DNA of 64,000 nt from Pseudomonas chlororaphis subsp. piscium. Lineage in GTDB: Bacteria; Pseudomonadota; Gammaproteobacteria; Pseudomonadales; Pseudomonadaceae. The notes below the pieces were generated by a model. That model ran no database searches and was not told the DNA's origin. It saw only the letters and a list, made by a program, of their open reading frames with translations. Within the stretch, counting starts at the first letter, position 1, and every line of letters begins with the position of its first letter. The stretch spans positions 6,687,001 through 6,751,000 of the forward strand of contig NZ_CP027707.1 in the NCBI RefSeq assembly GCF_003850345.1, given 5' to 3'. Below, piece by piece: positions 5,120 to 34,738 of the stretch. The position numbers and the translations under genes are program-made.

Positions 5120-6478
5120 TCAGACGGCGAAGAGCAGGAATTCCCGCTCCCACGAACTGATGACGCGCTTGAAGTTTTCATGCTCGGCCCGCTTGACCGC
5201 GACGTAGCCAGTGATGAATTTCTTGCCCAGGTACTTCTCGATGGTCTTGCTGTTTTCCATGCGCTCCAGAGCGTCCTCGATGGTCAACGGCAGGCGCAGG
5301 TTACGGCGCTCGTAGCCACGGCCGACCACCGGCGCGCTCGGGTTGTGGCCTTCGACCATGCCGATGAAACCGCACAGCAGGCTGGCGGCGATGGCCAGGT
5401 AAGGGTTGGCGTCGGCGCCCGGCAGGCGGTTTTCCACGCGGCGGTTCTGTGGCCCGGCATCCGGTACGCGCAGGCCCACGGTGCGGTTCTCTTCGCCCCA
5501 CTCCACGTTCACCGGTGCCGAGGTGTCCGGCAGGAAGCGGCGGAACGAGTTGACGTTGGGCGCGAACAACGGCAGCAGCTCGGGGATGAACTTCTGCAGG
5601 CCGCCGATGTGGTTGAGGAACAGCTGGCTCATGGTCCCGTCGTCATTGGAGAAGACGTTCTTGCCGGTCTCGATGTCGATGATGCTCTGGTGCAGGTGCA
5701 TGGCGCTGCCCGGCTCGCCGGTCATCGGCTTGGCCATGAAGGTGGCGGCCACCTCATGCTTGAGCGCGGCTTCACGCATGGTGCGCTTGAACACCAGGAT
5801 CTGGTCGGCCAGGGACAGGGCGTCGCCGTGACGGAAGTTGATTTCCATCTGCGCCGTGCCGTCTTCGTGGATCAGCGTGTCGAGATCCAGCTCCTGCAGT
5901 TCGCACCAGTCGTAGACGTCCTCGAACAGCGGGTCGAATTCGTTGGCCGCTTCGATGGAGAACGACTGGCGACCGGTTTCCGGGCGACCGGAACGGCCGA
6001 CCGGTGGCTGCAACGGGTAGTCCGGGTCGTCGCTGCGCTTGGTCAGGTAGAACTCCATCTCCGGCGCCACGATCGGCTGCCAGCCGTGGTCGGCGTAGAG
6101 TTTCAGGACCTTCTTGAGCACGTTGCGCGGCGACAGCTCGATCGGGTTGCCCTGCTTGTCGTAGGTGTCGTGGATCACCTGGGCGGTCGGCTCGATGGCC
6201 CAGGGCACGAGGAATACCGCGTTCTGGTCCGGGCGGCAGACCATGTCGATGTCGGCCGGGTCCAGCAGTTCGTAATAGATGTCGTCTTCGACATAGTCGC
6301 CGGTCACCGTCTGCAACAGCACGCTCTCGGGCAGGCGCATGCCTTTTTCGGCGATGAACTTGTTGGTTGGCGAGATCTTGCCCCGGGTGATCCCGGTCAG
6401 GTCGCCAATCATGCATTCGACTTCTGTGATCTTGTGGTCTTTCAACCAATCGGTGAGCTGGTCGAGGTTGTTACTCAT
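5120..6478 (-). CDS. spuB: Gamma-glutamylpolyamine synthetase, glutamine-synthetase family
   Basis: This glutamine-synthetase-fold enzyme (PuuA type) joins glutamate to a polyamine using ATP, the first step of the gamma-glutamylated putrescine route. The protein has 452 residues. The N-terminal beta-grasp part opens EVECMIGDLTGITRGK, the metal-binding strand is VAPEMEFYLTKR, the nucleotide region is GSAMHLHQS, and the C-terminal block is VENRLPGADANPYLAIA. It starts at the ATG at 6478, 30 bases after spuA. It is paralogous to spuI (7575-8951), which lies across the divergent promoter region. The two may differ in which amine they glutamylate; sequence reading alone cannot settle that. Confidence 0.93.
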   Translation of the reverse strand: MSNNLDQLTDWLKDHKITEVECMIGDLTGITRGKISPTNKFIAEKGMRLPESVLLQTVTGDYVEDDIYYELLDPADIDMVCRPDQNAVFLVPWAIEPTAQVIHDTYDKQGNPIELSPRNVLKKVLKLYADHGWQPIVAPEMEFYLTKRSDDPDYPLQPPVGRSGRPETGRQSFSIEAANEFDPLFEDVYDWCELQELDLDTLIHEDGTAQMEINFRHGDALSLADQILVFKRTMREAALKHEVAATFMAKPMTGEPGSAMHLHQSIIDIETGKNVFSNDDGTMSQLFLNHIGGLQKFIPELLPLFAPNVNSFRRFLPDTSAPVNVEWGEENRTVGLRVPDAGPQNRRVENRLPGADANPYLAIAASLLCGFIGMVEGHNPSAPVVGRGYERRNLRLPLTIEDALERMENSKTIEKYLGKKFITGYVAVKRAEHENFKRVISSWEREFLLFAV

Positions 6479-6500
6479 AAATGCCTCTAGGCGTGAGTTT

Positions 6501-6520
6501 CCTGGCTCTTATAAGCCAGG
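6501..6520 (+). terminator. Hairpin with T-run at the 3' end of spuA
   Basis: The arms CCTGGCT and AGCCAGG are followed by TTTTT, reading on the plus strand, so it would stop antisense transcription entering from spuB. In the spu mRNA (minus strand) it forms a hairpin overlapping the spuA stop region without a U-run. Confidence 0.4.
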
Positions 6521-7306
6521 TTTTTGTGACGCATTGGCGTCGCGTTGCATTACCCGCTTGCGACAGGCATCGCCAAATGCCTGGAAGATGGCGAGGTAGT
6601 GAGGGTTAGAGCTTACCTGCCATTCAGGGTGCCATTGCACCCCCAAAGCAAAAGCCTTGCCTCCCTCGATCGGCGCCCCCTCGACGGAGAAGGCTTCGAT
6701 CAACCCGTCGGGTGCCAGGGCCTCTATCCTAAGGCCCGGCGCCAGACGTTCAACGCCTTGGCCATGAATCGAATTGACTTCAATCTGCGCCGGCAGGCCG
6801 AGGCCGGCCAGCACCCCGCCCGGCTGCACATGCAGCGCATGGGCGGGTCCATATTGCACTTCCACCGGCTGGCTATCGTCCTCGCGGTGGTCCATGAACG
6901 GGCCGGCTTCGTGGACCCGCTGATGCAGGCTGCCGCCGAAGGCCACATTCATTTCCTGGAAGCCGCGGCAGATCCCCAGTACCGGAACCCCGGCCGCCAC
7001 CGCGGCGCGGATCAGCGGCAGGGTGCTGGCATCACGGGCAGGATCATGCGCGGTTCCCGGCGCGCTGGCGGGACCTCTATAGTGAAAAGGCTCGATATTG
7101 GAGGGTGAACCGGTAAAGAGGATGCCATCCAGACCGTCCAGAATATCGGACGGGCTCAGAATATCGGCCAGGGACGGGAGGATCATGGGCACGCCCTTGG
7201 CTGCTACTGCCACTGCACGGACGTACTTGTCGCCACTGATGTGATAAGCATGCAGACCGATCTGCCTGGAGCAGGCGGTGACGCCGATTAACGGCAGGCG
7301 AGACAT
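6509..7306 (-). CDS. spuA: Gamma-glutamyl-polyamine/GABA hydrolase, class I amidotransferase
   Basis: This PuuD-like cytoplasmic hydrolase releases glutamate from gamma-glutamylated intermediates of polyamine degradation. The protein has 265 residues with the class I glutamine amidotransferase triad: nucleophile C113 in LGICRGFQE, then H226 and E228 in VQWHPEW. It is the first gene of the leftward spu cluster. The start is the ATG at 7306 after an imperfect purine-rich site, and transcription comes from the 268-base region shared with spuI. Confident family assignment; the exact substrate is inferred from E. coli PuuD and the neighbouring synthetases. Confidence 0.93.
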   Translation of the reverse strand: MSRLPLIGVTACSRQIGLHAYHISGDKYVRAVAVAAKGVPMILPSLADILSPSDILDGLDGILFTGSPSNIEPFHYRGPASAPGTAHDPARDASTLPLIRAAVAAGVPVLGICRGFQEMNVAFGGSLHQRVHEAGPFMDHREDDSQPVEVQYGPAHALHVQPGGVLAGLGLPAQIEVNSIHGQGVERLAPGLRIEALAPDGLIEAFSVEGAPIEGGKAFALGVQWHPEWQVSSNPHYLAIFQAFGDACRKRVMQRDANASQKPGL

Positions 7307-7574
7307 GAAACACCCCGGTATTATTGCTGTTATGGGTTTAAATCGAGCTTAGCCTTGTTCATTTTTTTACACAACACCCCCGTAAAAAATACAACACGGC
7401 CCGCTCAAGGCTGCGGCAGCCAAGCCCTCCGAAGCCAAAAAAGCGCCCCAAAAATGCCCCACAGGCGCTTTTTTAGGGCAAAAAAGGCCTCGCTTGACTT
7501 CGGCATGCCGTTCGGGTTGACTGAAACCTGAAAAGATCAATGATTGATATTTTTAACAACAAAGGTGTTGCATC
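7307..7574. promoter_or_regulatory. Divergent spuA/spuI control region
   Basis: This 268-base gap separates divergent spuA (left) and spuI (right) and must hold both promoters. It is A+T-rich near spuA (7320-7395) and contains a long hairpin with A-tracts and T-tracts at 7437-7474. I could not assign clear -35/-10 or sigma-54 elements. Confidence 0.6.
7437..7474. terminator. Bidirectional terminator-like hairpin upstream of spuI
   Basis: The arms AAAAAAGCGCC and GGCGCTTTTTT are perfect complements around a 16-base loop. Flanking A and T tracts make it look like an intrinsic terminator in both directions. It lies between two divergent genes, where no 3' end is expected, so it may work as an attenuator in the spuI leader. 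Confidence 0.6.
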
Positions 7575-8951
7575 ATGTCGGTACCCCCGCGTGCCGTTCA
7601 GCTTAACGAAGCGAACGCGTTCCTTAAGGAACATCCTGAGGTTCTGTACGTTGACCTTCTGATTGCGGATATGAATGGTGTGGTGCGCGGCAAGCGCATC
7701 GAACGCACCAGCCTCCACAAGGTTTACGAGAAAGGCATCAACCTGCCGGCCTCTTTATTTGCCCTGGATATCAATGGCTCGACGGTGGAAAGCACCGGCC
7801 TGGGCCTGGACATCGGCGACGCCGATCGAATCTGCTATCCAATCCCCGATACCCTGTGCAATGAACCCTGGCAGAAGCGCCCTACCGCGCAGCTGCTGAT
7901 GACCATGCACGAACTCGAAGGCGACCCTTTCTTCGCCGACCCGCGCGAAGTGCTGCGCCAAGTCGTTGCCAAGTTCGACGAACTGGGCCTGACCATCTGC
8001 GCGGCTTTCGAGCTGGAGTTCTACCTGATCGACCAGGAGAACGTGAATGGCCGGCCACAGCCGCCACGCTCGCCGATCTCAGGCAAGCGCCCGCATTCGA
8101 CCCAGGTCTACCTGATCGACGACCTCGACGAATACGTCGACTGCCTGCAGGACATTCTCGAAGGCGCAAAAGAACAAGGCATCCCGGCCGACGCCATCGT
8201 CAAGGAAAGTGCTCCGGCGCAGTTCGAAGTGAACCTGCACCACGTCGCCGACCCGATCAAGGCCTGCGACTATGCGGTACTGCTCAAACGTCTGATCAAG
8301 AACATCGCCTACGACCATGAGATGGACACCACCTTCATGGCCAAGCCTTACCCAGGCCAGGCGGGTAACGGTCTGCACGTCCACATTTCGGTCCTGGACA
8401 AGGACGGCAAGAATATTTTTGCCAGCGAGGATCCCGAGCAGAACGCCGCACTGCGTCACGCGATCGGCGGTGTGCTCGAGACCCTACCGGCGCAGATGGC
8501 TTTCCTCTGCCCGAACGTCAACTCCTACCGTCGTTTCGGCGCGCAGTTCTACGTACCGAACTCGCCGAGCTGGGGCCTGGACAACCGCACCGTTGCCCTG
8601 CGCGTACCGACCGGCTCCGCCGATGCGGTCCGCCTGGAGCACCGTGTGGCCGGCGCCGACGCCAACCCGTACCTGCTGATGGCTTCGGTCCTGGCGGGCG
8701 TGCACCACGGTCTGGTCAACAAGGTCGAACCGGGCGCGCCAACCGAAGGCAACTCCTACGAGCAGAACGAGCAAAGCCTGCCGAACAACCTGCGCGACGC
8801 ATTGCGTGAGCTGGACGACAGCGAAGTCATGGCCAAGTACATCGACCCGAAATACATCGATATCTTCGTGGCCTGTAAGGAAAGCGAGCTGGAGGAGTTC
8901 GAGCACTCGATCTCCGACCTCGAGTACAACTGGTACCTGCACACCGTGTAA
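7575..8951 (+). CDS. spuI: Gamma-glutamylpolyamine synthetase
   Basis: This is a second glutamine-synthetase-family enzyme for glutamylating polyamines, 458 residues. The ATG at 7575 is preceded by AAAGG. Family blocks are visible: LLIADMNGVVRGKR near the N-terminus, CAAFELEFYLID (metal ligands), GNGLHVHISVLD, FLCPNVNSYRRF, and LEHRVAGADANPYLLMASVL. It is divergent from spuA, as spuI is from spuA in P. aeruginosa. It ends in an intrinsic terminator. Confidence in the family is very high; the preferred amine is unknown. Confidence 0.94.
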   Translation: MSVPPRAVQLNEANAFLKEHPEVLYVDLLIADMNGVVRGKRIERTSLHKVYEKGINLPASLFALDINGSTVESTGLGLDIGDADRICYPIPDTLCNEPWQKRPTAQLLMTMHELEGDPFFADPREVLRQVVAKFDELGLTICAAFELEFYLIDQENVNGRPQPPRSPISGKRPHSTQVYLIDDLDEYVDCLQDILEGAKEQGIPADAIVKESAPAQFEVNLHHVADPIKACDYAVLLKRLIKNIAYDHEMDTTFMAKPYPGQAGNGLHVHISVLDKDGKNIFASEDPEQNAALRHAIGGVLETLPAQMAFLCPNVNSYRRFGAQFYVPNSPSWGLDNRTVALRVPTGSADAVRLEHRVAGADANPYLLMASVLAGVHHGLVNKVEPGAPTEGNSYEQNEQSLPNNLRDALRELDDSEVMAKYIDPKYIDIFVACKESELEEFEHSISDLEYNWYLHTV

Positions 8952-28080: not shown

Positions 28081-30954
28081 TCAGCGGTAGGCATCCACCG
28101 GTACGCAGGCGCAGAACAGGTTGCGGTCGCCGTAGACATTGTCGACCCGGTTCACCGTCGGCCAGTACTTGTGCGCCCTGGCGTGGGGGCTGGGGATCAC
28201 CGCCTGCTCGATGCTGTAGGGCCGCTCCCAGACTCCGGCGATGTCCGCCAGGGTATGGGGCGAACGCTTGAGCGGGTTGTCTTCGGCCGGCCAGTTGCCC
28301 TCCTGGACCTGGGCGATCTCGGCGCGAATGCTCAGCATGGCCTCGATAAAGCGATCCAGCTCGGCCTTGGACTCGCTTTCGGTGGGCTCCACCATCAGCG
28401 TGCCCGGCACTGGGAACGACATGGTCGGCGCGTGAAAACCGTAGTCCATCAGGCGCTTGGCCACGTCCTCTTCGCTGATGCCGGTCTGCGCCTTGAGCGG
28501 CCGCAGGTCGAGAATGCACTCGTGGGCGACCCGGCCATTGCGCCCGCTGTAGAGCACCGGGAAGGCCCCGCTCAGGTGTTCGGCCAGGTAGTTCGCGGCG
28601 AGGATCGCCACCTCGCTGGCATCCGCCAGCTGCGGCCCCATCAGGGCGATGTACATCCAGCTGATCGGCAGGATGCTCGCGCTGCCCCAGGGCGCCGCAC
28701 TGACCGCGCCGTTCTGCGGCAACGGCCCGTCGATGGCCACCACCGGGTGGTTGGCCACGAACGGCGCCAGGTGCTCCCGCACGCCGATCGGCCCCATGCC
28801 CGGGCCACCGCCGCCGTGGGGAATGCAGAAAGTCTTGTGCAGGTTCATGTGGGAAACGTCGGCGCCAATATCGGCCGGCCGTGTCAGCCCGACCTGGGCG
28901 TTGAGGTTGGCGCCGTCCATGTACACCTGGCCACCGTGGCTGTGGATCACCTCGCAGATCTCGCTGATGCCCTCCTCGTACACCCCGTGGGTCGAAGGAT
29001 AGGTCGCCATCAGGCACGCCAGCTGTTCGCCCGCGGCCTGGGCCTTGTCTTTCAGGTCTTGCAGATCGACGTTGCCAGCGTCGTCGCAATCGACGATCAC
29101 CACCTGCATGCCGGCCATCTGCGCCGAGGCCGGGTTGGTGCCGTGGGCCGAGGCGGGAATCAGGCAGATATTGCGCTCTCCCTGCTGGCGGCTCTCGTGG
29201 TATTTGCGGATCGCCAGCAACCCCGCGTACTCGCCCTGGGCCCCGGAGTTGGGCTGCATGCAGATCGCATCGAAGCCGGTAATGGCGCATAACCAGCGTT
29301 CAAGCTCCTCGATCATCAGCGAATAGCCGAGTGCCTGCTCCAGCGGGACAAAGGGATGCAGGTTGGCGAAGCCGGGCCAGGTGATGGGGATCATCTCGCT
29401 GCTGGCATTGAGCTTCATGGTGCAGGAACCCAGCGGGATCATCGACTGGTTCAGCGCCAGGTCCTTGTTCTCCAGCTGCTTGAGATAGCGCAGCATCTCG
29501 GTTTCGCTGTGATGGCTGTTGAACACCGGATGGCTCAGGTAAGGCGTGCTGCGCAGCAGGTCCTGGGGAATGCCCGGGACCAGGGCTTCAGCGTCCAGTT
29601 GCGCGACGTCCAGACCGTGGTCGGCGCCGAGGAACACATCGAACAGCCGGGCGACAGTACTCTCGTCGCAGGTTTCATCCAGGCTCAGGCCCAGCTGCCC
29701 GCGCCCGAGGATCCGCAGATTGATCTGCGCGGCCTTGGCGCTCTCGATGATGGCCGTCTGGCTACCACCGACCTCCAGCGTCAGGGTGTCGAAGAACTGC
29801 CGGTTCAGCCGCTCGATGCCCTTGCGCTCCAGGCCGGCGGCGAGGATGCAGGTCAGGCGATGGACGCGCTGGGCAATACGCCGGAGGCCTTCCGGGCCGT
29901 GATAGACCGCATAGAAACTGGCGATATTGGCCAGCAGCACCTGGGCGGTGCAGATGTTCGAGTTGGCCTTCTCGCGGCGGATATGCTGCTCGCGGGTCTG
30001 CAGGGCCATGCGCAGCGCCACGTTGCCCCGGGCATCCTTGGACACGCCGATGATCCGCCCCGGGATCGCCCGCTTGTACTCCTCGCGGCTGGCGAAGAAC
30101 GCCGCATGGGGCCCGCCATAGCCCATGGGCACGCCAAAGCGCTGGGACGAACCGAACACCACGTCGGCCCCCAGCTCGCCCGGCGGCGTCAGCAGCAACA
30201 GGCTCAACAGGTCGGCGGCCACGCAGGCCAGCGCCTGCTGCGCGTGCAGGTGATCGATCAGCGGCCGCAAGTCGCGAATCTCGCCGTGGGTGTCCGGGTA
30301 TTGCAACAAGGCACCGAAGACTTGGTGCCGCTTGAGGTTGTCCAGGGTGTCGACCACCAGTTCGAAGCCGAACCCTTCGGCGCGGGTCTGCACCACCGAA
30401 AGGGTCTGCGGATGGCAGTTCTGGTCGACGAAGAACAGATTGCTTTTCGACTTGGCCACGCGCTTGGCCAGGGCCATGGCTTCGGCGGCCGCGGTCGCTT
30501 CGTCCAGCAGCGAGGCGTTGGCCAGTTCCAGGCTGGTGAGGTCGATGGTCAGTTGCTGGAAGTTGAGCAGGGCTTCGAGCCGGCCCTGGGCGATTTCCGG
30601 TTGGTAGGGCGTGTAGGCGGTGTACCAGCCAGGGTTTTCCAGCACGTTGCGCAGGATCACCGTGGGGGTCAGGGTGCCGTGGTAACCCATGCCGATCAGG
30701 CTGGTCCAGACCTGGTTCTGCTCGGCATAACCGCGCAGCTTGGCCAGGGCGGCCTGCTCGTCCAGCGCCGGCGGCAGGTCCAGCGGACGGTTGAAACGGA
30801 TCCCCGGCGGCACGGTCTGCTCGATCAGCTCGACCCGGCTGCCCAGGCCCAGGCTGTCGAGCATCGCTTGCTGCTCGGCGGCGTCGGGCCCGAGGTGACG
30901 CCGCAGAAAGGCATTGGGATCGCGTAACTGGCTCAAGGACGGCAACTGGGACAT
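28081..30954 (-). CDS. gcvP: Glycine dehydrogenase (decarboxylating), P protein
   Basis: The P protein of the glycine cleavage system decarboxylates glycine and passes the aminomethyl group to the lipoyl arm of GcvH. The protein has 957 residues, the normal single-chain length. The PLP lysine is K707 in [16 protein letters not shown], and the other family block is [13 protein letters not shown]. The start is the ATG at 30954 ([16 protein letters not shown]); the frame remains open to 31575, but that part overlaps the divergent aminotransferase gene. gcvH and gcvT lie 3.4 kb away on the same strand, separated by three inserted genes on the other strand. Confidence 0.96.
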
Positions 30955-31128
30955 GGCGGGCTCTCTCTCAGGCGGCGCTCGGCGTCGATGGAACAGGGTC
31001 AAAGCAGCATAGCAGCCGATCCCGGACGCCGACGGTGTGGCACCCCGGGCGAACCGGTAGCATGATGCTCGACTCCGGCGCGGCCCGCCGCCCTGCCTCG
31101 ACCACTGCTTATCGGGTATCCCATCGTC

Positions 31129-32271
31129 ATGAGCCAACTGCCTTTCCTGCCGTTCTCCAAACCCACCATCGATGAAGCCACCATCGCCAGCGTCGGCGAA
31201 GTCCTGCGTTCGGGCTGGATCACCAGCGGGCCCAAGGTCCAGGCCTTCGAAGCGCAACTCTCGCAGTACTGCGGCGGGCGCCCGGTGCGCACCTTCAATT
31301 CCGGCACCTGCACCATGGAGATCGCCCTGCGTATCGCCGGCATCGGCCCTGGCGACGAAGTCATCACCACGCCGATTTCCTGGGTGGCCACGGCCAACGT
31401 GATTCTCGAAGTCGGCGCCACCCCGGTGTTCGCCGACATCGACCCGGTTACCCGCAACATCGACCTGGCCCAGGTGGAAGCGGCCATCACGCCACGGACC
31501 AAGGCGATCATCCCAGTGTTTCTCGCCGGCCTGCCGCTGGACATGCCGCGCCTGTATGCCCTGGCACGCAAACACGGCCTGCGGGTCGTGGAAGATGCCG
31601 CCCAGGCGCTGGGCTCAAGCTGGAACGGCGAGCGCATCGGCGCCGGCGGCGACCTGGTGTCCTTCAGTTTCCAGGCCAACAAGAACGTCACCTGCAGCGA
31701 GGGCGGCGCCCTGGTGCTGAACACCGCCGAAGAGGCCCGCCTGGCGGAGAAGTACCGCCTGCAGGGCGTGACCCGCCACGGCTTCGACGGCCTGGACGTG
31801 GATGTGCTGGGCGGCAAATTCAACATGACCGACGTCGCGGCCGCCATCGGCCTGGGCCAGTTCGCCCACCTCGAAACCCTCACCGCTCACCGCCGCGAGC
31901 TGGCCCGGCATTACTTCGAATGCTTCGGCAGCGACTTCGAAGCCCGCTACGGCGCCCAGTTGCCACCGGCGGACTTCAGCAACAGCAACTGGCACCTGTT
32001 CCAGCTGGTACTGCCGGAGCGGCATGACGGCAAACCGGCGCGGGCGACCTTCATGGAACGGATGCAGGAACGCGGGATCGGCATCGGCTATCACTACCCG
32101 CCGATTCACTTGCTGAGCCTGTACCGCGAGCGCGGTTTCAAGGAGGGGATGTTCCCGGTGGCGGAACGGGTGGGACGCCTGATCGTCTCGTTGCCGATGT
32201 TCACCGCCATGACCAAGGACGATGTAGAACGCTCGGTAGCGGCGGTGAAGGCTGTCTTGCAAGAGGCATAA
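31129..32271 (+). CDS. DegT/DnrJ/EryC1/StrS (ArnB-like) PLP aminotransferase
   Basis: This sugar-nucleotide aminotransferase-family protein has 380 residues. The PLP lysine is K185 in [14 protein letters not shown], the cofactor aspartate is D156 in [10 protein letters not shown], and the N-terminal WITSGPK block is typical. It resembles ArnB, which makes UDP-4-amino-arabinose for lipid A modification. No other arn gene is present, however, so the nucleotide-sugar substrate is uncertain. The ATG at 31129 is divergent from gcvP, with 174 bases between. It ends in an intrinsic terminator. Confidence 0.9.
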
Positions 32272-32314
32272 ATAGATGCCGGCCCCTGAACGGCCGGCCC
32301 TTGCACTATCCAAG

Positions 32315-32346
32315 ACGCTCAATGCCCTGCATTGGGCGTTTTTATT
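32315..32346 (+). terminator. Terminator of the aminotransferase gene
   Basis: The arms ACGCTCAATG and CATTGGGCGT (one G-T pair) are followed by TTTTTAT, about 45 bases after the stop codon. Confidence 0.8.
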
Positions 32347-32655
32347 TCAGCGATAAAGATAGTTGCCAATCGCTATATATCAGCGCCACTGGCCCGATTC
32401 CTTGTGCCAAAAACCAGACTCCCGGCAGAACTTTCTTTAACTGCGCACATAAACACATGATAAACCAGCACGATTCAACACATTGAACTTTCGCAATGCA
32501 GGCAGCACCAAAGACAATAGCCAATAGTTCTATAGTTCAATTTTTTGCATGCTATGTTTACTTAGGACTGCGCAGCTGAGACAAAAGGCCATTACGCAGT
32601 TGCAAAGACCGTTACAAAATCCATGTTTCAATTTATTCGAAATGGAGTTCAAAAA
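32347..32655. promoter_or_regulatory. A+T-rich leader/promoter region of the first paralogue
   Basis: These roughly 310 bases hold no gene I can support and are distinctly richer in A+T than the flanking sequence. The promoter of the downstream unknown gene must lie here; a stretch near 32535-32570 (AATTTTTTGCATGCTATGTT) is the most promoter-like. The change in composition continues through both paralogues. Confidence 0.4.
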
Positions 32656-33339
32656 ATGAGCAGCCAACAGATAATTCTATACATCGAAGAACAGCAGTTG
32701 ATTGCACAAAAAAAGAACAACTACAGCCTTTATCTGGCCAAGAAAGTAAACAATGACTTCACTGTCATCTGGCAATCAAAAGGCCCCATTGCCACAGTCA
32801 ACAACCCTAGTTACCAATATAGAAACACCTTCGATATCGCCACCCCGTCGTTCATGGTCAACTTCACCAATGACCCGGTCACAGCCGGCGATGTCACCTT
32901 CACCTCCGGCGGCAAAAACCTGCCCATCAGCACCGGCCAGACCACGACCCTCACTCCAAATGGCGTGTTCACGCCAGCCAAGAACGGTGGCGTCCCCTCA
33001 GATGTGCTCATCAAAAATGAGCTGCAAGGCAATCCACATGAAATCCTCCTGGATTCCAACGGCAATAACATCTGGGTGAATCGTCAGAGCGGCATGAACA
33101 TCGGCACTGCAACGCTGACACCAAAAAGCCAATATCAAGTCTGGTTCGGCAACATTCAGGAAACCGGTTCATTGATCGCCACCAACCTGTCCGACCCCTA
33201 TGTGGTGACCCTGCAGGATGGCGGCAGCATCACCATTACCTACACCGACAATGGCACCTGGGTGACCGGCGAACCAGCCAAACGCCTGAGCGCCGCTGAA
33301 ATCAAGGCACTTCACGCCAGGGCCGGGATCGCGGCATAG
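32656..33339 (+). CDS. Uncharacterised beta-rich protein, tandem paralogue 1
   Basis: I do not recognise this 227-residue protein. It starts at the ATG at 32656, with GGAG eight bases upstream. There is no signal peptide and no membrane segment. Features include YSLYLAKKVN near residues 24-33, FTSGGKNLPI, and a C-terminal part NGTWVTGEPAKRL ending in a short helix. It is rich in Thr, Asn, Gly and Ser in alternating patterns, suggesting a beta-sandwich or lectin-like fold. It has no cysteine. It aligns without gaps over most of its length with the next gene. Codon use is less G+C-rich than in its neighbours. Confidence 0.8.
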   Translation: MSSQQIILYIEEQQLIAQKKNNYSLYLAKKVNNDFTVIWQSKGPIATVNNPSYQYRNTFDIATPSFMVNFTNDPVTAGDVTFTSGGKNLPISTGQTTTLTPNGVFTPAKNGGVPSDVLIKNELQGNPHEILLDSNGNNIWVNRQSGMNIGTATLTPKSQYQVWFGNIQETGSLIATNLSDPYVVTLQDGGSITITYTDNGTWVTGEPAKRLSAAEIKALHARAGIAA

Positions 33340-33435
33340 TCCGCGGGACGGGCTCGAGCATCGGTTGCGCGAAGGACGCAGAGCACCACGCGATACCCTT
33401 GGCAGTCTTTCGCTCGCAAACGCCGCTCAAACAAG

Positions 33436-33470
33436 AAAACCCTGTATATCGCCGATCTACAGGGTTTTTT
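33436..33470 (+). terminator. Intrinsic terminator between the paralogues
   Basis: AAAACCCTGTA and TACAGGGTTTTTT pair perfectly around an eleven-base loop. This implies that the two paralogues can be transcribed separately, although the second gene begins only 80 bases further on. Confidence 0.85.
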
Positions 33471-33548
33471 ATTGATGGCGTCGAACCCGGCCAGCTGGAC
33501 TCGAGACTCTGCACCGAAATCATCCACGGGATGAACGTGAGATTAGCC

Positions 33549-34256
33549 ATGAGCAAGCAGACCATCATCGTCTATATCGAAGAAGAGCAACTTGTTGCCC
33601 AAAAGGTAAACAACTACAGCCTCTATCTGGCCAAGAAAGTAAACAGCACTTTCACCGTCATCTGGTTTGCAAAGTCCCCCTTCGCTGCCCCCAACCAGCC
33701 GTCCTACCAATATAAGAATATCTTCAATATCACCAATGACTCCTACATGGTCAATTTTACAAACACGCCAGTACAAGAAGGTGATGTCAACTTTACCTCG
33801 GGAGGAAAAAACCTGCCCATCAACACGGGCCAGATAACCACCCTGACTAAATACGGTATATTCAGCCCTGCAAAGAATGGTGGCACACCAGGAGATGTTT
33901 CAATAAATAACGAACTTTCGGCCAACCCCAGCGAAATATTATTGGACTCTACCGGACTCAGTCTCTGGGTGAACTGTTCAGGTGGCATGAATATAGGTGT
34001 CGCCACCATGACACCCAAAAACGAGTTTCAATTATGGTTCGGCCCAGGCCAGGCAGCGGGCTCATTAATCCCCACTAACCTGTCCAATCCTTACACCATA
34101 AGCGTGAACGATGGAGAAACCAAAACCGTCACCTACAACAATCAGGGTGCCTGGGTCAGCGGCGAACCGACACTGCGCCTGACAACAGAAGAAATAGCCG
34201 AACTTCATATCAGGGTAAGCAAAGCCGTGCTGCTGGCCAGATCGCTCCGTCGTTAG
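33549..34256 (+). CDS. Uncharacterised beta-rich protein, tandem paralogue 2
   Basis: This 235-residue protein is a diverged duplicate of the preceding one, with roughly 60% identity by eye. Shared blocks are IEEEQLVAQK, NNYSLYLAKKVN, MVNFTN, FTSGGKNLPI, GGMNIG and WVSGEP. It has one cysteine (in WVNCSGGMNIG) that paralogue 1 lacks, and a longer basic C-terminus (LLARSLRR). The start is the ATG at 33549; the ribosome site is weak (GAGATTAGCC) and the frame is open upstream. No signal peptide. Base composition is low in G+C for this genome. It ends just before the convergent gcvH. Confidence 0.8.
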   Translation: MSKQTIIVYIEEEQLVAQKVNNYSLYLAKKVNSTFTVIWFAKSPFAAPNQPSYQYKNIFNITNDSYMVNFTNTPVQEGDVNFTSGGKNLPINTGQITTLTKYGIFSPAKNGGTPGDVSINNELSANPSEILLDSTGLSLWVNCSGGMNIGVATMTPKNEFQLWFGPGQAAGSLIPTNLSNPYTISVNDGETKTVTYNNQGAWVSGEPTLRLTTEEIAELHIRVSKAVLLARSLRR

Positions 34257-34288
34257 GTCAGTGACTTGAGTTGTCGCATTGTCTTAAA

Positions 34289-34325
34289 CGAAAAACGCCG
34301 CATACCCGATAAGGGAACACGGCGC
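34289..34325 (-). terminator. gcvH terminator
   Basis: On the minus strand GCGCCGTGTTCCC and its near-complement CGGGTATGCGGCG are followed by TTTTT, about 30 bases after the gcvH stop. Confidence 0.75.
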
Positions 34326-34354
34326 TCTTGTAACGGCTTGGCTTGCGGCAGTGA

Positions 34355-34738
34355 TTATTCGCCGATAGCGGCCTTATAACCGGCTGCGTCGAGCAGCTTC
34401 TCAAGGTCGGCAGCATTGGCCGGCTTGAGCTTGAAGATCCAGGCGCCGTACGGGTCGCTGTTGAGCAGCTCGGGGCTGCCACTCAGGTCTTCGTTGACCG
34501 CGATCACTTCGCCGGCCACTGGCGCGTAGATGTCGGAAGCGGCCTTCACCGATTCCACCACACCGGCCTGGTCGCCAGCGCCGAAGACATTGCCGACTTC
34601 GGTCAGCTCGACGAACACCACGTCGCCCAGGGCTTCCTGAGCGTGGTCGCTGATGCCCACGGTCACGGTGCCGTCGGCTTCCAGACGGGCCCATTCGTGA
34701 CTTTCGGCAAAACGCAGGTCAGCAGGGATATCGCTCAT
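34355..34738 (-). CDS. gcvH: Glycine cleavage system H protein
   Basis: This lipoyl carrier shuttles the aminomethyl group from GcvP to GcvT. The protein has 127 residues, with the lipoylated lysine K65 in [13 protein letters not shown]. The start ATG is at 34738 ([10 protein letters not shown]), after a GAGGACAC-type site. The gene lies 51 bases downstream of gcvT and is cotranscribed with it. Confidence 0.96.

Follow-up and report, generated by a model that had tools for sequence, protein, structure and literature searches.

Which kind of protein is encoded by two adjacent, related genes located between the glycine cleavage genes of Pseudomonas chlororaphis subsp. piscium, and what keeps them together? 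Both genes lie in a window of 64,000 nucleotides (the whole stretch of DNA analyzed; G000:C1:6687001-6751000) of a 7.07 Mb genome consisting of a single contig. A first-pass annotation made from the sequence alone had described them as a tandem pair of leaderless, beta-rich proteins, about 60% identical, for which no family could be named. Gene I (32656..33339, plus strand; 227 amino acids) is an open reading frame (ORF) with GGAG upstream and with homologs, and encodes a leaderless beta protein; gene II (33549..34256, plus strand; 235 amino acids), its paralog, follows after 209 bp. In a single BLASTP comparison, 143 of 226 residues were identical (63%, no gaps, E-value 4e-107), in line with the earlier estimate. 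The other features described from the letters were recovered as well. Threonine, asparagine, and glycine make up 29.1% of protein I and 27.7% of protein II, and cysteine is absent from the former and occurs once in the latter. Neither N-terminus is hydrophobic (best 19-residue Kyte-Doolittle mean within the first 30 residues −0.11 and 0.01, respectively), as expected for proteins lacking a signal peptide. The guanine plus cytosine (G+C) content is 49.9% across 32272-34300 versus 62.5% for the window (gene I 52.6%, gene II 48.4%). No third copy was found in the same genome, where only two matches appeared at E-values up to 1; the closest database match of protein II is 94% identical.

The two genes are ancient paralogs that stay side by side in a fixed order and evolve under purifying selection. 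In a tree of 67 rows, the type II proteins formed a single clade (26 rows, support 100/100), and the type I rows were placed outside this clade without forming a resolved clade of their own. Five tandem loci with short forms were fetched, four from Pseudomonas (the window, L003, L004, and L081) and one from Aeromonas piscicola (L005). In all five, gene I precedes gene II on the same strand with a spacing of 141-217 bp. Among the listed matches of protein II, type I and type II apparently came from the same source in eight cases, two of which are L003 and L005. The ratio of nonsynonymous to synonymous substitution rates (dN/dS) between orthologs was 0.06-0.24 in 15 of 20 comparisons, the remaining five being saturated; the values are rough, because dS mostly exceeded 1. 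For gene I, the ratio was 0.06-0.15 (7 of 10 comparisons, three saturated) and for gene II 0.08-0.24 (8 of 10, two saturated). Orthologs of each gene with such ratios argue that the pair is more than a set of chance ORFs.

The first-pass annotation had assigned a terminator to each gene, which holds for gene I and is less certain for gene II. An inverted repeat (33436-33468) with a T-run forms an intergenic hairpin (33436..33470, plus strand), a terminator or attenuator of gene I that folds at −17.8 kcal/mol (z −4.08). Hairpin and T-run were present in 5/5 tandem loci, and 50 of 50 cells were paired. Compensatory changes occurred in two of ten hairpin pairs (one each in Aeromonas and L081); as the covariation was equaled in 19 of 500 shuffles, it is supportive, not overwhelming. 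The gene I terminator is real and conserved. The hairpin past gene II (34291..34325, minus strand) is located at the end of the convergent gcvH and is perhaps bidirectional. Since its T-run lies on the minus strand, it serves gcvH at least equally well.

Upstream of gene I, a conserved block (32547..32570, plus strand) is a putative promoter or leader. Its first 13 nucleotides, GCATGCTATGTTT, are identical in all four Pseudomonas loci and conserved more weakly in Aeromonas. A 19-nucleotide block at the ribosome site of gene I (32636..32654, plus strand) is likewise identical in the four Pseudomonas loci. This invariance had raised the idea of RsmA/Gac control, which was dropped because RNA folding of four loci gave no consistent hairpin at this block. 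Rfam yielded no match at E-values up to 1 within 32270-34360. These signals are most simply read as a single promoter combined with a partial terminator, yielding more of protein I than of protein II; a separate promoter for gene II is also possible.

Judged from profile comparisons, the pair belongs to a real, unnamed family that extends over several bacterial phyla, with members in proteobacteria, Clostridium, cyanobacteria, Chloroflexi, and Bacteroidota. A phmmer search with protein II found at least 66 proteins at E-values up to 0.001 (550 candidates). Alignment A1 comprised 66 sequences, namely the pair itself (P0001, P0002) and 64 of these 66 matches; the fragments P0022 and P0067 were excluded. 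The A1 profile matched at least 150 clusters at E-values up to 0.01 (7998 scored), and among the matches listed were Pseudomonas, Aeromonas, Clostridium felsineum, Moorena, Caldilineaceae, Massilia, and several alphaproteobacteria. The profile of a distant branch, A2, built from 8 of 22 Pseudomonas sequences, retrieved at least 585 relatives at the same threshold (7716 candidates), a count that may overlap with that of A1; the matches listed include Halomonas, Methylococcales, Spirulina, Chloroflexi, and Bacteroidota. In a profile comparison spanning 191 columns, A2 aligned with A1 (probability 98.8%). Names among the matches listed were all "hypothetical" or "uncharacterized," apart from one garbled entry, and many rows were nameless. 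The family being large, the earlier suggestion of something undescribed applies to its annotation and not to uniqueness in this genome. At least 585 clusters from several phyla share a core that is unnamed in the family libraries used.

Within Pseudomonas, the A1 profile identified 25 carriers among 398 genomes: the pair in two (the genome studied here and G108), a lone form of 324 amino acids in G186, and the distant branch in 22. When 398 genomes from 212 genera of the phylum were surveyed, the genome studied here alone matched at E-values up to 1e-5, so the family looks rare outside Pseudomonas, with the limit that at most six candidates per genome were scored in this survey and distant members were possibly overlooked. 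In the open-access literature, searched also with six locus tags of relatives, no paper was tied to the family.

The site of the pair is variably occupied. It lies in the gap between gcvH and gcvP (window 30955-34355), bordered on the left by a gcvP-like ORF (28081..30954, minus strand, identified by eye, start inferred) and on the right by a gcvH-like ORF (34355..34738, minus strand, by eye), with a gcvT-like ORF (minus strand, by eye) also on the right. A relative of the gcvH-like protein was found in 29/29 genomes. The upstream neighbor, outside the pair, encodes a DegT/DnrJ-type aminotransferase (31129..32271, plus strand; PF01041, E-value 1.9e-110). All four Pseudomonas loci read carry the pair at this site, and in L004 the DegT gene is absent beside it. 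In 12 other Pseudomonas loci (L039-L050), the gap next to gcvH was read by script; in L051-L056, the motif found no gcvH. The gap was empty or held the DegT gene alone in 8 of the 12, gcvP following gcvH directly in five (L039, L044, L046-L048) and the DegT gene in three (L040, L042, L043). A different gene followed in L049 and L050, and L041 and L045 were not clearly read. Thus, in different Pseudomonas, the gap is empty or is occupied by only the DegT gene, by only the pair (L004), or by the two in combination, which indicates an exchangeable site into which the pair was inserted in some lineages or from which it was lost in others. The only direct repeat found as a possible insertion mark was a 17-nucleotide pair located within the two genes, and no carriage on plasmids or phages was found.

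The AlphaFold2 model of protein II (predicted local distance difference test, pLDDT, 93.1) displays a beta-sandwich interrupted by an insert of about 85 residues, in agreement with the beta-rich character proposed earlier. No clear fold match to this model was obtained among solved structures. The sandwich may resemble CBM41, an alpha-glucan-binding module, at 10% identity and partial coverage, from which it differs by the inserted region; neither CBM41 nor any other carbohydrate-binding family was matched in Pfam at E-values up to 10. Specific polar and tryptophan columns are conserved across distant relatives. Short proteins of about 230 amino acids make up the pair and its close relatives; many A1 relatives comprise 320-350 amino acids with an additional C-terminal domain that is missing from the pair and resembles ferredoxin-like folds. 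In P0079, this domain (residues 223-323) is alpha/beta in the AlphaFold2 model (whole-model pLDDT 81.4, predicted template modeling score 0.56). The C-terminal domain of the long forms is hydrophobic along one stretch (the highest 19-residue mean is 1.97, at residue 224 of P0079). In the A2 branch, the N-terminal extensions vary between a type found in P0187 and P0244 and another in P0208 and P0241; the start of P0234 resembles a signal peptide by eye.

That no family could be named was borne out by scans of Pfam, NCBIfam, PDB, PADLOC, and PHROG, none of which gave a confident match. Pfam and NCBIfam gave no confident hit to a housekeeping or enzyme family, the outcome set beforehand as speaking against the annotation. 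Neither protein matched these two libraries above the cut-off, nor was an enzyme or housekeeping family matched above it by 10 relatives and 8 sister-branch members in Pfam or by 7 proteins, including the regulator-like neighbor described below, in NCBIfam. No PDB sequence was found for protein II or for the A4 and A2 profiles, and the A1 profile gave three chance-level rows (E-values 0.83-0.89). PHROG matched neither protein at E-values up to 0.01, and the PADLOC profiles for anti-phage defense matched 0/7 proteins at the same threshold. Protein I had no match in 50,697 phage records, and 0/60 pattern matches in viral contigs encode a relative. Several weak matches were judged to be due to chance: DUF6134 (E-value 0.13) and Ca_tandemer (0.88) for protein I, DUF6266 for P0068 (0.0041, below the cut-off), Phage_fiber_2 in 3 of 8 sister-branch members (best 0.0014), halo_surf_dom for P0187 and P0241 (0.002 and 0.029, below the cut-off), and phrog_11171 for P0187 (0.0068), besides several weaker ones.

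The PixA/AidA inclusion-body family (PF12306), to which Burkholderia AidA and Xenorhabdus PixA belong, comprises leaderless proteins. With it the window pair shares the short, leaderless beta protein and the tandem paralogs; PixA/AidA matches lie side by side, two each, in 9 of 13 carrier genomes. However, the window proteins are longer and have no sequence relation to this family: Pfam gave no match at E-values up to 10, and hhalign returned a probability of 0.1% for both branches against 18 Pseudomonas PixA proteins. The genome studied here has one PixA/AidA gene (G000:C1:6550393-6550881; L086 1501-1989), followed by an ORF starting at L086 2078 that by eye resembles a second member. AidA of Burkholderia is called nematocidal, and aidA with the next ORF is termed a putative two-gene operon (PMC2753556). 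By analogy, we consider AidA the nearest working analog. The pair did not match aegerolysin (PF06355) in Pfam. The binary insecticidal proteins AfIP-1A/1B, as described in PMC5465095, likewise involve an adjacent gene pair and a small beta-structured protein. In contrast to the window pair, whose members are paralogs 209 bp apart with a terminator in between, AfIP-1A and 1B are mutually unlike (146 and 703 amino acids), with genes 11 bp apart. PIP-47Aa of Pseudomonas mosselii (295 amino acids), one of the PIP-47 insecticidal proteins, is similarly reported as a Pseudomonas protein that has no Pfam domain and no known homology (PMC5787824). Photorhabdus, Klebsiella, Vibrio, and Raoultella, in which its distant relatives are described, do not occur among the family matches listed.

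Lectin, pore-forming, insecticidal, and inclusion-body roles, all raised in the first-pass annotation, are candidate functions. Our preferred reading, to which we assign a probability of roughly one in three, is a mobile two-gene cassette encoding two paralogous cytosolic beta-sandwich binding proteins. The leader would drive gene I, and most transcripts would end at the internal hairpin, so that protein I would be made in excess over protein II. Both proteins are presumed to be non-enzymatic and to bind a ligand, a glycan or a membrane, via conserved asparagine, glutamine, and tryptophan residues. They would stay inside the cell and act once it is eaten or lysed, as a two-component anti-predator or host-interaction system that may resemble AidA/PixA proteins and fungal cytoplasmic lectins in action while being unrelated to them by descent. 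The lack of a leader, the conserved polar and aromatic residues, the sandwich, the tandem paralogs, and the patchy cassette together fit binding proteins that target another organism. The same leaderless, cysteine-poor composition rich in threonine, asparagine, and glycine and the PixA/AidA-like tandem layout would also suit a pair of storage, inclusion, or stress proteins that accumulate in the cell without an outside target. We regard this as rather unlikely, as the conserved polar and tryptophan columns exceed the needs of a filler and homology to PixA is lacking. Somewhat less probable is a surface or biofilm lectin or matrix protein that leaves the cell without a leader and binds the producer's own polysaccharide. 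The possible likeness of the sandwich to CBM41 points in this direction, as do the relatives named Moorena, Spirulina, and Chloroflexi, which are often filamentous or mat-forming; the patchy presence and the absence of any secretion gene seen by eye beside the Pseudomonas pairs, whose neighbors were not family-searched, argue against it.

That the two proteins act as interbacterial effectors, such as type VI cargo, is improbable. Such a role would be suggested by vgrG and DUF4123 genes about 5-6 kb from the A. piscicola pair, but inspection by eye revealed neither of these at the four Pseudomonas loci, transposase-like ORFs (by eye) adjoin the Aeromonas pair, so this neighborhood is possibly due to chance, and proteins I and II, being paralogs, show no toxin/immunity asymmetry. 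A role linked to the surrounding glycine cleavage genes is the least credible explanation. The site is common to the four Pseudomonas loci; yet the pair is on the opposite strand with its own leader and hairpin, gcvP follows gcvH directly in 5 of 12 other loci, and the Aeromonas pair and a long form (L006) are located elsewhere. Beyond the cassette itself, we tentatively propose, as a doubtful extension, a new family of binding proteins that spans several phyla and whose sandwich and insert lack a clear solved match: a mobile pair in Pseudomonas and Aeromonas, its ratio set by the conserved terminator, and another Pseudomonas branch in which one gene is linked to a regulator of its own. The pair offers a genetic handle on this family, as it combines a compact, patchy cassette, a candidate stoichiometry switch, and a confident model with a regulator-like link in 22/22 genomes of the sister branch. 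Glycan or membrane binding, if it applies, would make the two proteins new candidates for predator defense, host interaction, or pest control in biocontrol pseudomonads.

In this sister branch, a gene whose product has about 267 amino acids is located tail to tail with the A2 gene in all 22 Pseudomonas genomes (L014-L035), the match being partial in L024 and L028, the latter at a contig end. The neighbor weakly resembles a winged-helix regulator (Trans_reg_C, E-value 0.063, below the cut-off). A TGTAAC-CC block is invariant upstream of the sister-branch genes (21 of 22 aligned), and the block TGTAACGCC is located upstream of the sister-branch gene. No regulator-like neighbor was seen at the loci with the pair. 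An example of the tail-to-tail arrangement is found in L071 (5594-6400 with 6441-7181).

The surroundings of the A. piscicola pair fit an island of accessory genes, as seen at this single locus. The pair lies amid a vgrG/DUF4123 cluster with transposase-like ORFs, identified by eye (L005 1461-20338). The same locus encodes two small proteins that matched nothing in Pfam (7299-7838 and 7898-8365) and a protein of 2005 amino acids with a TcdA/TcdB pore domain.
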